The notes beneath the pieces were generated by a model. It ran no database searches, had not been told where the DNA came from, and saw only the letters and a program-made list of their open reading frames with translations. Shown piece after piece: positions 40,254 to 46,198 of a stretch of DNA of 64,000 bases. Both the position numbers and the translations under genes were made by a program. The DNA comes from Gardnerella massiliensis (GTDB taxonomy: Bacteria; Actinomycetota; Actinomycetes; Actinomycetales; Bifidobacteriaceae): positions 285,875 to 349,874 of the forward strand of contig NZ_LRTV01000001.1 of NCBI RefSeq assembly GCF_003408845.1, read 5' to 3'. The stretch's first letter is position 1, and every line of letters starts with the position of its first letter.

Positions 40254-42578
40254 TTAATCGTTACTGTTACGCAGTGCAGTATATATAATTTTTGCTTTAC
40301 TTTCACCAATTCCAGGTACCTTCTGCAAATCTTCTAGTGAAGCTTTCCTTATTCCTTTTACGGAACCAAACTGAGCAAGCAAACGTTTGCGGTACGCTAC
40401 CCCAATACCAGGGATAGTGTCAAGAATTGAATGCAATGCACCTTTTCGACGTCGAATACGATGATACGTAATAGCAAAGCGATGTGACTCGTCTCGCGCT
40501 CGCTGCAATAAATATAAGCCCTGCGAACTTCTTTTTAAGATTATCGGGTAATCCTCGTCAGGAAGCCACACTTCCTCAAGCTTTTTAGCTAAGCCACACA
40601 CTGTAATATCGTAAATTCCAGCATCGTGCATAGCTCGTCTTGCAGCCTTTGCCTGCTCGCGCCCACCGTCAACCATAACTAACTGTGGCCTATATGCAAA
40701 ACGCTTCTTACTCATATCTTCATAGGAGTTATCTTCGCAGGAGTTATTTTCGCAGGAGTTATCTTCACAAGATTTGTTAGCATTATGCGACGCAGTGTTT
40801 GAAGCAGCATCACTATGACTAAACCTTCGCAATATCGTTTCGTATACTGCACTTAAGTCGTCAATCTTGCCATCACCGTTTTCGCCACGAATAGCAAAAT
40901 GACGATACTCACTTGGACGAGCTAAACCATCTTCGAAAACAACCATAGAAGCAACCTGATAGCTACCGTCTACAGTATTGGAAATATCGTAACATTCAAT
41001 GCGCAAAGGTGCCTCTGCCATGCCAAGTGCTTGCGCTATCTCGTTCATAGCCTCGGTTCGCATTTCCATACTGCTTATGCGATGCGATTTTATGCGCGTT
41101 AAAGCCTGGCTCGCATTATCGTTAGCGCGTTGCATAAGCGCTCGCTTTTCTCCACGTTCCGCAACGCGAATGGTTACTTGAGAACCACGAATACTGCTGA
41201 GCCACGATTCTAATTCTTGTAAACGTTCCTCTGGAATAGCGACAGGAACGATAATTTCTCGAGGCACAGGAGCAATAGGCGCCAATAAATCTTCACGACC
41301 CGTGGTTTCTTGACGCTCTCGACGAATTTTAGTGGCCTGTGCTCTCGACGCAGGGTCAATTGCAGTAGCCTTAGTCGAAGTGTTAAAAGCGTCGCGAAGC
41401 TGCTTAATAGTGACTAGATTGCGCTGTATTTCAGTAGCATCATGTTCATACTCTGCATATACGTGCGTGAGAAGATCGGCTAACAGCTCACCATCGCTCA
41501 TCTCTTCATTGCGTTCTACTGACCAGTTGCGTTCTCCTCGAATCATCCCAGCTCGCACAAAAAATGCGTGGATGGATGCTTCCAAATCGTCACCACATAA
41601 ACCAAATACGTCTGCTTCCACATCATCGTCAAAGACCACGGCATTTTGTTGCAAAACGGTGCTAAGCACTGCAATTTCGTCGCGCAATGCAGCCGCACGC
41701 TCAAACTCTAAATCCTCACTCGCTCGCTTCATTTCACGCGTTATTTGCGCAATATACGAATTACCAATACTGCCCGTAAGTATGCCAACTACATGCTCAA
41801 CATATTCACGATGCTCGCGAGGCGTAATATTGCCAACACAAGGAGCCGAACACTTGCCGATGGAAGCTAGCAAACATGGTCGTCCAGTTCTATGGGCTTT
41901 ATAAAACACGCCTGAAGAACAGGTTCGAATAGGAAATGTTTTCAGCAACGAATCTAAACTATGTCGTAGCGGCCATACTTTTGCGTATGGTCCAAAATAC
42001 AGTGTTTTCTTAGCCCCACGATTGCGAGTAATCCAAACTCTCGGAAACTCTTCACCAACAGATACAGCCACATAAGGGTAAGTTTTATCGTCGCGAAACA
42101 CTACATTAAATCGTGGATCAAATGCTTTAATCCATGTATATTCCAGCGTTAGCGCTTCAAATTCTGTTGCTACAACTGTCCACTCCAAACTGCGGGCAGT
42201 AAGTACCATGGATTGCGTGCGCGGATGCAACTGGTATAACGGTTGAAAATAATTTGCTAAACGATTGCGCAAATTTTTTGCTTTTCCAACGTAAATAACA
42301 CGCCCTTGACCGTCTCGCCATTTGTACACTCCCGGTTTAGCTGGAATATCTTGAGAAGCAGGACGAAATAAATCACGACTATCGCCTAATAAAGGCGCAC
42401 CAAAAGCATTAACGTCACTTTTACTAATTTGATGAGGATCATAGAGATTGTGCTGCGTCTTATGCCAGCAAGAATCTTGATGCGTATCGCAAACGGCATC
42501 ATCAGCGTCACAAACGTCACTATTATCATTGCCACTACTGCCGTAATTATATTGGTTAGTAATGTTATCGTCGTTCAT
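40254..42578 (-). CDS. uvrC: UvrABC excinuclease subunit C
   Basis: Makes both incisions in nucleotide excision repair. Domains in order: GIY-YIG endonuclease (G-V-Y-K-W ... V-I-Y-V-G-K-A-K-N-L-R-N-R, about 80-160), a UVR motif (near 265-300), the RNase H-like domain with D-I-S-N-T and M-V-D-G-G-R-E-Q, and two helix-hairpin-helix motifs at the C-terminus. At 774 aa it is longer than usual. About 75 extra acidic, Asn-rich residues precede the GIY domain, and AAGGAGGTG before the ATG shows this start is real. A second insertion near residue 605-625 consists of five-residue units N-S-C-E-D encoded by a 15-bp repeat. Confidence 0.95.
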   Translation of the reverse strand: MNDDNITNQYNYGSSGNDNSDVCDADDAVCDTHQDSCWHKTQHNLYDPHQISKSDVNAFGAPLLGDSRDLFRPASQDIPAKPGVYKWRDGQGRVIYVGKAKNLRNRLANYFQPLYQLHPRTQSMVLTARSLEWTVVATEFEALTLEYTWIKAFDPRFNVVFRDDKTYPYVAVSVGEEFPRVWITRNRGAKKTLYFGPYAKVWPLRHSLDSLLKTFPIRTCSSGVFYKAHRTGRPCLLASIGKCSAPCVGNITPREHREYVEHVVGILTGSIGNSYIAQITREMKRASEDLEFERAAALRDEIAVLSTVLQQNAVVFDDDVEADVFGLCGDDLEASIHAFFVRAGMIRGERNWSVERNEEMSDGELLADLLTHVYAEYEHDATEIQRNLVTIKQLRDAFNTSTKATAIDPASRAQATKIRRERQETTGREDLLAPIAPVPREIIVPVAIPEERLQELESWLSSIRGSQVTIRVAERGEKRALMQRANDNASQALTRIKSHRISSMEMRTEAMNEIAQALGMAEAPLRIECYDISNTVDGSYQVASMVVFEDGLARPSEYRHFAIRGENGDGKIDDLSAVYETILRRFSHSDAASNTASHNANKSCEDNSCENNSCEDNSYEDMSKKRFAYRPQLVMVDGGREQAKAARRAMHDAGIYDITVCGLAKKLEEVWLPDEDYPIILKRSSQGLYLLQRARDESHRFAITYHRIRRRKGALHSILDTIPGIGVAYRKRLLAQFGSVKGIRKASLEDLQKVPGIGESKAKIIYTALRNSND

Positions 42579-42647
42579 TTATTCACCTCCTTCATTTCGA
42601 TTTACGACTTACGACTTTCGACTTACGACAATTTGAACCAAACTATA

Positions 42648-43115
42648 GTTTATTTTACAATTCGTTTGGTGTGGCGCGAGTTTTGGGAGATTTCTCTCCT
42701 CGAACGTCCCGTCCTTCGTCGCTCTGGCTGTTAAAGGCTTTTATGTCTGCTTCGTTTTCTATGAACGTTGCTTCCTCAGTCCTCTTTTAGTTCTCGTAGA
42801 GAAATCCCCCTAAACTCTGCGTGCTAATCGTTAATAACCGTGTCTATCGCTGAGATTTTTCGATTTTTCTTCTTCGCTCGACTTGTCAGTAGCCTGCGGT
42901 TCTGCGCGACGACCTGCCGAAGCGCTCAAAGCGTAGCGCGCGAAGGCAACTCGGAGCGGAAACTCGCTTAAGTTGGAAGTCCGGGGGACTTCCAACGCGA
43001 GTTTCGTAGCGAGCGCGTCGCAATCCGCGCGAGCGTCCTTCGCTCAGCGCGAAAAATCTCAAATCTCTACCACGCTAATATTCCCACAAATGAATGATGA
43101 CACAATTAAGATGTA
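42648..43115. other. Structured G+C-rich intergenic element between uvrA and uvrC
   Basis: No gene is supportable in this 468-bp core of a 567-bp spacer. It has nested inverted repeats. TGAGATTTTTCG (42851-42862) pairs with CGAAAAATCTCA (43050-43061). AAACTCGC plus GTTGGAAGTCC pairs with GGACTTCCAAC plus GCGAGTTT (42960-43004) around a GGG loop. A further imperfect pair lies at about 42672-42697 and 42797-42822. The part near 42890-43050 is much richer in G+C than its surroundings. The 11-bp direct repeat AACCAAACTAT borders the element at 42637-42647 and 43116-43126. A mobile remnant, a dispersed repeat or a structured RNA would all fit. Confidence 0.6.
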
Positions 43116-43145
43116 AACCAAACTATGAGTGCTGTCACAGGCAAG

Positions 43146-46118
43146 TCAATGCGCAGTAAGCATCGGCTTGAGGAATTTGCCAGTCCAGCTTTCAGAACAC
43201 CTCGCCACTGATTCCGGAGAACCTTCTGCAACCACAGTTCCACCGTTATCTCCTCCCTCTGGACCTAAGTCAATAATCCAGTCGGCAGACTTTACCACAT
43301 CAAGATTATGTTCAATAACGATAACGCTGTTACCTTTATCGACCAGAGACTGCAATACGCTTAACAATTTTCTCACGTCTTCACAATGAAGTCCGGTTGT
43401 TGGCTCATCGAGTATATATACAGTCTTCCCAGTTGACCTTTTCTGCAATTCCGTAGCAAGTTTCACACGTTGCGATTCACCACCAGAAAGTGTTGGCGCA
43501 CTTTGCCCTAGACGAATATAGCCAAGACCAACCTTCACAAGCGTATCTAAATATCTGGCAATAGACGGGTAAGATTTGAAGAACACTGCCGCTTCAGAAA
43601 TAGGCATATCAAGAACGTCGGAAACAGATTTGCCTTTATAAGTAACTTCCAAAGTTTCACGATTGTATCGCTTTCCGTGGCACGCTTCACATTCAACATA
43701 GACGTCGGGAAGGAAATTCATTTCAATTTTTAATGTTCCATCGCCGTGGCACGCTTCACATCGACCACCTTTTACGTTAAATGAGAAACGTCCAGGACCA
43801 TAACCGCGAACTTTTGCTTCGGGAGTTTGGGCGAAAAGCGAGCGAATTTTGTCCCACACACCCGTGTAGGTTGCAGGATTAGAACGCGGAGTGCGACCAA
43901 TAGGATTCTGATCCACATGTACTACTTTGTCACAATATTCAACGCCTTCCACCCGCTTATGTTTTCCAGGAACTATGCGTGCACCGTTGAGCTTATCAGC
44001 AAGGACTGGGTAAAGAATTGAATTTATTAAGCTTGATTTTCCTGATCCTGATACGCCCGTAATGCAGGTGAATACACCTAAAGGTATGCTTACGTCGACA
44101 TTTTTTAAGTTATGTTCACGGGCACCGAGAATGTGAAGCATACGGTTTTCGTCTACAATACGACGTTGTTTTGGTACGTCTATTGAACGTCTGTGAGCAA
44201 TATAGTCTCCGGTAATTGAGCGCTGAGCTTTGATAATATCTTTGGACGGACCTGAATACACTACTTCTCCGCCATGTTCACCAGCTTCTGGACCAATGTC
44301 AACCAACCAATCTGCTTGACGAATGGTATCTTCGTCGTGTTCTACCACAATTAGCGTATTTCCGAGGTTTCGTAAATGGTGCAACGTTGCAATTAAGCGC
44401 TCGTTATCTCGCTGATGTAAGCCAATAGATGGCTCGTCAAGCACATACATAACACCAACTAATCCTGAACCTATCTGCGTAGCCAAACGAATTCGTTGCG
44501 CTTCGCCGCCAGATAATGTTTTTGCAGCTCTTGAAAGAGTGAGATAACTTAAGCCAACGTCGTTTAAGAAGCCAAGGCGAGCGCGTATTTCTTTCACTAC
44601 TTCCGCCGCAATTAAGGCTTGAGAGCCTTCCAAATTAAGCTGATTTATCCACGAAAGACTGCGCTCAACCGGCATATCACACACTTCCGCTATGGAAGTA
44701 TCTGCAACTGTTACTGACAACACTTCTGGACGCAAACGTTTACCTTGACATTGCTGGCATGGTACTTCGCGCATGTAGGATTCGTAGTATTGGCGCATTT
44801 GTTCCGAGTCTGTTTCATCATGCTTACGCATGAGTGTTCTGACTACACCCTCAAAGCCAGTTGTATATTCGCGTTGTCTGCCCCAACGATTTTTATACGA
44901 TACTTGCACAGTAAAGTCGTGCCCGTACATAATAGCATTACGAATATCTTTGCTAAGATTCTTCCAAGGCGTATCCATGCTGAAATTTAAATCTTGGGCA
45001 AGTCCAGATAGTATGTGCTGATAGTACATGCCTGCTGACTTATTCATTGCCCAAGGCTCGATTGCTCCCTGAGAAAGAGACTTGTCGGGATCTGGGATCA
45101 CAAGTTCTGGGTCGATTTCAAGGTTGTATCCAATTCCGGAACATTCTGGGCATGCTCCGTATGGTGCATTAAATGAAAATGTTCTCGGCTCAATTTCGTC
45201 AAGTTCTAGCTGATGATTGTTCGGGCAAGCACGATGCTCTGAGAAGGTACGACGACGTTGAGATGAATTGTCGGGTTCGTCAACGAAATCAGCAACTACC
45301 ACGCCTTGCGAAAGTCGCAATGCTGTTTCTATTGAATCAGTAAGTCGTACTCGAATACCATCTTTAATAACCAGTCGATCAATTACTACTTCAATAGTGT
45401 GTTTTTTCTGCTTTTCAAGAGCAATATCTTCAGCAAGCTCATACATACTTCCGTCAATAATCGCTCGCGCATAACCGTCGGATCGCAAAAGATCAAGAGT
45501 TTCCTTAAATTCTCCCTTACGTCCGCGTACAACGGGAGCTAAAATTTGCAAACGCGTACGTTCTGGCATTGCCAAAAGTGTATCAACCATCTGTTGCGGT
45601 GTTTGTGCACTTACTAATTGACCACACACAGGGCAATGCGGCACACCTATTCTTGCGAACAGAAGTCGTAAATAATCGTAAATCTCAGTGATAGTGCCGA
45701 CAGTAGAACGCGGGTTACGATTGGTAGTTTTTTGATCGATAGAAACAGCCGGGCTTAAACCCTCAATAAAATCTACATCAGGCTTATCCATACGACCTAA
45801 AAATTGACGAGCATACGCGCTTAACGATTCAACATAGCGTCGTTGACCTTCAGCGAAAAGCGTATCAAAAGCAAGCGAAGACTTACCCGAGCCGGAAAGT
45901 CCTGTAAAAACAACCATACGGTTGCGAGGAATCGACAAACTCACATTTTTAAGATTGTGTTCTCTAGCGCCTTGAATAGTTATTTTCCACTCAGCAGGAA
46001 CTTGCGATAAATCGGATATAACCGTCCCGTTATGGGTACACAGCGGAGCGTTATCTAACAAATTTTGTAAAGCGTCCGGCTGCTTAGCGTCCGGCTGCTT
46101 ATTCTCCTGCTGTGTCAT
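43146..46118 (-). CDS. uvrA: UvrABC excinuclease subunit A
   Basis: Damage-recognition ATPase of nucleotide excision repair, 990 aa. Two ABC modules are visible: Walker [10 protein letters not shown] near residue 60 and G-V-S-G-S-G-K-S-S in the second half. Signatures are L-S-G-G-E-A-Q-R and L-S-G-G-E-S-Q-R, each module with a zinc-binding insertion (C-P-E-C and C-E-A-C-H-G-D-G ... C-E-A-C-H-G-K). Near the N-terminus a five-residue unit, K-Q-P-D-A, is duplicated. TTGGAGG before ATG 46118 decides the start over an ATG 4 codons upstream. A LexA box covers its promoter. Confidence 0.96.
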
Positions 46119-46198
46119 TGCCGCCTCCAACTAATCTGAATAGTAAAACACTCCTGAAACGCAAACCCCTCAATAAGCGTCTCACTCCATAGCAAGCC

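Follow-up and report, generated by a model that had tools for sequence, protein, structure and literature searches.

The window, meaning the whole stretch of 64,000 nucleotides analysed here, belongs to a Gardnerella-type genome of 1,622,653 bases in 13 contigs (about 1.62 Mb). It includes uvrA and uvrC, both on the minus strand, and the gap of 567 bp between them, already noted in the first-pass annotation, was borne out by the gene ends at 42578 and 43146. The UvrC of the window matched seven named loci, five from Gardnerella and two from "Bifidobacteriaceae bacterium", with best segments of 73-79%. It carries a low-complexity stretch, SCEDNSCENNSCEDNSYEDM, and its alignment to the relative G022 is interrupted there (residues 595-625).

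The spacer holds a 484-bp element whose features are listed in Table 1. The first-pass annotation had placed it at 42637-43126; the element itself was recovered but its exact limits are 42644 and 43127. We found all the inverted repeats previously described in the spacer: the stem around GGG (42972-42982 with 42986-42996, 11 of 11 pairs, 3-nt loop), the outer 8-pair helix, and an outer 12-bp pair (42851-42862 with 43050-43061, 12 of 12, 187 nt apart), the last being distinct from the terminal repeat of the element. The latter was recovered in the inverted-repeat comparison over 15 nt (42645-42659 with 43112-43126, 87%). The step in base composition is present too, since positions 42900-43099 have 56% G+C versus about 38-49% in the surrounding 200-bp segments; it comes mainly from the B module, the segments over A having 42-46%. 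As previously suggested, the element contains no credible ORF: none of at least 80 amino acids lies inside or spans it, and a mechanically called ORF of 101 amino acids (42429-42734) enters from the left. A promoter and terminator scan of the element gave two promoter-like signals, versus 0.7 expected, and no terminators. Short local repeats, TTTCGAYTTACGAC, lie between the element and uvrC (42595-42629).

Table 1. Coordinates of the uvrA-uvrC region in the window and of the full-length copies on the contigs of the same genome.
Feature	Position	Strand	Remark
uvrC	40254..42578	-	start codon side at 42578
uvrC ribosome-binding site GAAGGAGGTG	42584-42593		intact, 51-60 bp from element
16-bp sequence, 13 bp of it outside left end	42631..42646	+	14/16 identical to right end 43111-43126
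Whole element (484 bp), read from LE to RE	42644..43127	+	ends common to five full-length own-genome copies; similar ends in G118, G124
Left terminal inverted repeat TATAGTTTATTTTACA	42644..42659	+	
LE motif TTTGGTGTGGCGCGAGTTTT	42665..42684	+	24 matches vs 1 for reversed control
A hairpin, left arm	42678..42705	+	28 nt, 82% complementary to 42790-42817; covariation
Module A as used for search	42687..42903	+	
Module A conserved core and closing bases of stem	42702..42793	+	alignment of copies
A hairpin, right arm	42790..42817	+	complementarity, covariation
Module B, 133 bp	42904..43036	+	G+C-rich, nested in element, dispersed alone too
Main B stem-loop, 11 pairs, GGG loop	42972..42996	+	
RE region; core motif AAAAATCTCAAATCTCTA at 43052-43069	43035..43127	+	23 matches vs 2 for control
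Right terminal inverted repeat, CATAGTTTGGTTTACA on minus strand	43112..43127	-	13/16 identical to left one
uvrA	43146..46130	-	stop at 43146; upstream of element, same direction as uvrC
Full-length copy (window)	C1:328518-329001		484 bp; left/right repeats agree 13/16
Full-length copy	C6:15147-15630		484 bp; left/right repeats agree 12/16
Full-length copy	C7:45537-46020		484 bp; left/right repeats agree 13/16; B at another place
Full-length copy	C6:44561-44920		360 bp; left/right repeats agree 13/16
Full-length copy	C7:34953-35311		359 bp; left/right repeats agree 10/16

The sequence AACCAAACTAT, which the first-pass annotation had compared to a target duplication, is indeed found on both sides and the likeness is longer than claimed, 42631-42646 and 43111-43126 being identical at 14 of 16 positions. 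We nevertheless rejected a target-site duplication because the right copy (43116-43126) falls within the right terminal repeat of the element itself and recurs at that place in other copies. The left copy (42637-42647) is mostly outside the element, and no equivalent of it was found beside the other four full-length copies, which have no long flanking duplication but TA at most. For the left AACCAAACTAT, we favour an origin as an additional right end placed directly against the left end, an arrangement resembling a head-to-tail junction, although it may also be a coincidence.

Copies of the element and their modules

When 42600-43150 was used as the query against the own genome, 85 BLAST pieces were recovered, most of them partial, and the earlier suggestion of a dispersed repeat was thus well founded. 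Fifteen of these pieces correspond to the B stem matching the other strand, and many places yield more than one piece. The best other copy is 92% identical over 485 bp. Five full-length copies share the same ends; three measure 484 bp and the other two 359-360 bp, B accounting for the size difference. These copies begin with a TATAGKTTATATTRCA-like repeat and finish with its complement, and 7 of their 10 ends have TA as the terminal dinucleotide. The own genome contains six exact matches to the terminal motif, each of them located at a family copy. With up to two mismatches, the motif was no commoner than its reversed control (94 matches versus 93) and is therefore unable to find decayed ends.

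Conserved ends, LE and RE, enclose module A and often the hairpin module B, and the element is a mosaic. When eleven long copies were aligned, we observed sharp internal borders, some copies being LE-A-RE without B and others containing B. More generally, LE-RE pairs bound interiors that differ in content. At one such place (L139, C6 about 219700-220100), the interior resembles neither A nor B and consists of an array of short repeated units (CGTTACTGGTGCAG...CTGCGTTAGTAACG with variants).

Searches with B by itself and with a copy lacking B, together with scans for the end motifs, yielded an inventory of 57 non-overlapping B places in the stretches that were fetched, 20 RE sites and 20 LE sites. 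These numbers were obtained from 78 B matches after removal of overlaps, from 23 RE matches after exclusion of those with three mismatches, and from 24 LE matches after exclusion of four unrelated ones (L185, L188, L189, and L193). An RE in the right orientation was found 111-601 bp away from 16 of the 20 LE sites; two of them share one RE, giving 15 elements. Copy numbers in the draft genomes are probably too low, since the assemblies have runs of N inside or beside family copies (L156, L021, and L281). Between mechanically called, uncurated ORFs, 58 family clusters were located: 31 between co-directional, 18 between convergent and 6 between divergent ORFs, and 3 at contig ends. Nineteen clusters overlap an ORF, 18 of these ORFs being of 91-176 amino acids and possibly spurious, and one of 281 amino acids.

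Module B, an imperfect palindrome, occurs dispersed as single copies, as pairs and within other repeats. At ten places without B (nine in the own genome and one in G022), the B site has about 8 bp, GACGTCCG, or GACGTTCG in the copy at C6:44561. B copies also occur within a second, tandem repeat family, in which units without B have a 7-bp spacer (13 of 13 matches of the search pattern), and a unit of this second family lies at most 60 bp to the left of 7 of the 46 B copies whose left end is intact. Owing to shared letters, the borders of these insertions can be placed only to within a few bases. B being more numerous than the full-length elements, the terminal repeats are unable to explain all of the spread.

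Distribution and empty sites

Matches were found in 13 of 112 genomes of the genus, the own genome included. Twelve of these 13 genomes have a size of 1.5-1.8 Mb, the other one, G020 (3.0 Mb), having a single weak match (E = 1.9e-4). A separate genome search was in agreement, with 5 of 39 genomes matching and G020 again weak. The family thus appears confined to the Gardnerella lineage, which is seemingly classed with Bifidobacterium in the taxonomy used. Full-length copies of the A type occur in G118 (359 bp) and G124 (358 bp), with similar ends that are more weakly paired (10/16, ungapped, and 9/16).

The insert is missing from the uvrA-uvrC spacer of all seven named loci, which measures 46-147 bp there versus 567 bp in the window genome. 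We found no insert between uvrA and uvrC in G009, G014, G020, and G022 either; G022 and L037 are probably one record, which leaves ten distinct relatives without it. G118, which has full-length copies elsewhere, is probably the same record as L041 and as such would lack the uvrA-uvrC insert. The expected empty site was thus recovered as far as absence of the insert is concerned, but not as an isogenic site: the relatives belong to other species, with best uvrC segments 66-82% identical, so that absence and not precise excision is shown. A firmer case is the 484-bp copy at C6:15147, which G022 lacks in the corresponding spacer although the adjoining terminator-like hairpin is kept there. Conversely, G022 has copies at L025 and L031, and the same places hold family members in the own genome. 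The modules at places occupied in both genomes are the same or differ, which suggests that part of the family is old and counts against recent mobility.

A phage or plasmid origin found no match in 50,697 phage and 72,556 plasmid records, and the LE and A-core patterns had no exact match in viral contigs. The B pattern was present in 29 viral contigs; we took these matches as chance, only 1 of the 29 loci being alignable to the element, over 23 nt.

Folding and covariation of modules A and B

The minus strand of the 484-nt element folds at -167.3 kcal/mol, versus -136.2 (sd 5.5) for shuffled sequences (z = -5.65, 0 of 100 as good). A covariation check of the kind proposed in the first-pass annotation had a positive outcome, pairing being kept by paired changes in both A and B.

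For B, 42 copies had at least 96 nt from the left end, of which 40 distinct ones were aligned over 101 nt with a 38-pair structure assigned from the sequences. The proportion of paired cells was 88.9% versus 84.1% in shuffles (0 of 500 as high), 11 of the 38 pairs had changed on both sides versus 6.8, and covariation was 0.185 versus 0.097 (0 of 500 as high). The number of further pair types in B was not above that of the shuffles (21 versus 22.2). When the partners were slid, pairing fell to 24-49%. At the two positions of the outer stem that are left unpaired, 38 of 40 copies have a tandem G-A/A-G, the remaining two having A-T/T-A. Beyond position 98 or so, B is swapped for at least two other segments.

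Module A has a core of about 85 nt conserved across copies and species. The stem closing this core is made of three unrelated classes of arm sequences, the two rarer ones with two copies each, and complementarity is kept in all of them; the closing pairs vary further (GAAC/GTTC, GCAC/GTGC, AAAC/GTTT, GTGC/GCAC, GCGC/GCGC, and GCAA/TTGC). After dropping copies with N or below 75% identity, 25 distinct A copies were left, of which 23 were aligned and tested on 20 pairs of the RNAalifold consensus. In this alignment, from which L007 (B inside an arm) and L055 (left arm replaced) were excluded and would have lowered the percentage, 96.7% of the arm cells were paired versus 85.4% in shuffles. As many as 15 of the 20 pairs had changed on both sides, versus 5.2, and covariation was 0.367 versus 0.144; on each of five measures, none of the 500 shuffles scored as high, and every slid version scored lower, all these statistics being inflated by relatedness and by the choice of structure. 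The exchange of whole arms with complementarity kept would be hard to get without a constraint or a mechanism copying one arm to the other.

Discussion

We consider it likely that the insert in the uvrA-uvrC spacer is one copy of a non-autonomous, modular MITE-like transposable element of the Gardnerella lineage. The traits of a MITE found here are dispersed copies with fixed ends, terminal inverted repeats, no encoded protein and an empty site at the species level. Insertion, probably at TA, would have been the work of a transposase acting in trans and recognising the ends, and modules would have been gained, lost or swapped through recombination or the separate dispersal of B. Searches for such an enzyme detected no DDE_3 transposase (IS630 type) in 23 genomes, a set that includes the own genome, G009, and G014 and excludes G022, and no Y1_Tnp (RAYT type) in four family-bearing genomes (own, G009, G014, and G022), the control being positive in 5 of 14 genomes. 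Besides lacking DDE_3, the own-genome assembly, which has gaps, has no exact terminal motif outside the family that would point to an autonomous partner with the same ends. The absence of a matching transposase of these two types suggests that the family may now be idle. Transcription of uvrA and uvrC would extend across the copy in the window, placing a large hairpin between the two cistrons. As the ribosome-binding site of uvrC is intact, we would expect at most a modest effect on this gene, for instance uncoupling or RNase processing such as is described for Correia elements (PMC2649163).

The piecewise exchange of modules, the presence of B in lieu of about 8 bp in module A and, in the second repeat family, of a roughly 7-bp spacer, the joint changes of A arm pairs and the failure to find DDE_3 and Y1_Tnp in 23 and 4 genomes, respectively, could all be explained if the mosaic spread without any transposase, through recombination, gene conversion and template switching between palindromes. 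Recombination alone, however, does not lead one to expect both ends to be common to five full-length copies at unrelated places and similar in two relatives, and we regard this scenario as unlikely. The core of about 85 nt closed by three unrelated complementary arm pairs, together with the replacement by B of 7-8 bp in hairpin-rich repeats, raises another idea, that module A is a mobile structured core settling at the tips of existing palindromes, or rebuilding its own stem by template switching. This idea is doubtful on present data; if it were true, the target would be a DNA shape, the extruded hairpin, and not a sequence, and the outcome would be self-assembling mosaics of nested hairpins.

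The strong covariation in the A arms and B stems could also indicate that the element is kept as a structured RNA, either cis-acting or small, read with uvrA-uvrC and similar operons, mobility being secondary. The A consensus folds better on the minus strand (-29.5 versus -22.0 kcal/mol on the plus strand), to which both the wobble pairs (11 versus 6) and the orientation relative to co-directional genes (9 of the 12 clusters that contain A) lean. These two leans are nonetheless compatible with chance (p 0.33 and 0.15, respectively) and the same covariation is expected from DNA hairpins or from template-switch copying between arms. Moreover, the element is absent at uvrA-uvrC in ten relatives and no Rfam family scored above its gathering threshold (one match, 19.3 bits versus 80). 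We regard maintenance as an RNA as quite improbable; the hairpins themselves may act as RNA. REP/REPIN sequences are linked to the RAYT transposase, and B, being an imperfect palindrome dispersed alone, in pairs and inside other repeats, might be the true mobile unit, moved as REP/REPIN-like palindromes by such an enzyme. We regard this as very improbable given the lack of Y1_Tnp in the four genomes searched, the 133-bp length of B with its exchangeable 3' parts, and the terminal inverted repeats of the window element. The MITE-like element is our preferred reading.

In design, the element appears to be BOX- or Correia-like on our best reading, a likeness drawn from descriptions, and it seems assignable to no named family. 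BOX elements of Streptococcus pneumoniae (PMC3049150) have end modules (boxA and boxC) around a variable number of interior modules, with predicted stem-loops; conserved ends, a variable modular interior, stem-loops and clusters with mutually inserted repeats are common to both. Unlike BOX, the Gardnerella element has terminal inverted repeats, interior modules that differ in kind as well, and a B module dispersing alone. The Correia/NEMIS elements (CREE) of Neisseria are described as being 104-157 bp long with two main size classes differing by an internal segment, and one of them is located upstream of the excision-repair gene uvrB (PMC2229807, PMC2649163). The likeness lies in the terminal inverted repeats, the TA ends, the two size classes and the stem-loop formed if transcribed, whereas the Gardnerella element is longer (359-484 bp) and belongs to another lineage. 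CREE can carry promoters, whereas no signal was clearly beyond chance in our scan (2 versus 0.7 expected). RUP of S. pneumoniae resembles our element in being short and non-autonomous, with TA insertion and movement proposed in trans, but it has a proposed partner, IS630-Spn1 (PMC2229807), whereas DDE_3 was found in none of our 23 genomes. Finally, REP/REPIN sequences share with it the presence of dispersed palindromes (PMC3116915), whereas the Gardnerella element is longer, modular, and without Y1 transposase in the four family-bearing genomes. Among the papers listed by a limited search of the open-licence PMC literature, we saw no earlier description of such a family in Gardnerella.

A repeat family varying in place and module content among Gardnerella-type species would serve as a typing marker, as BOX does for pneumococcus. 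The element may also alter the expression of its neighbours, here the repair gene uvrC. In addition, the A hairpin makes it testable how palindromes keep complementarity under full sequence turnover, be it by selection, template switching or hairpin-tip insertion.

Other repeats and genes near family copies

The second dispersed tandem-repeat family is organised around GGAACATTTGCCGGA...CTCCGGCGTTTG, for example at C7:83000-86400 (L231) and C8:80816-83946 (L015). The fetched stretches, 165 kb in all, contain 66 GGAACATTTG units, of which some are interrupted by B. A further motif, GTGTGCAGCAGCA...ATGCTAGTG with its variants, recurs just outside several copies (C1:479000, C1:728000, and C1:769000), near RE ends or A copies. 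A B-related fragment lies no more than about 60 bp downstream of each of two tRNA-Ser genes (anticodon tga at L012:1135-1316 and cga at L106:843-1023), and a tRNA-Gly gene adjoins B copies at L183.
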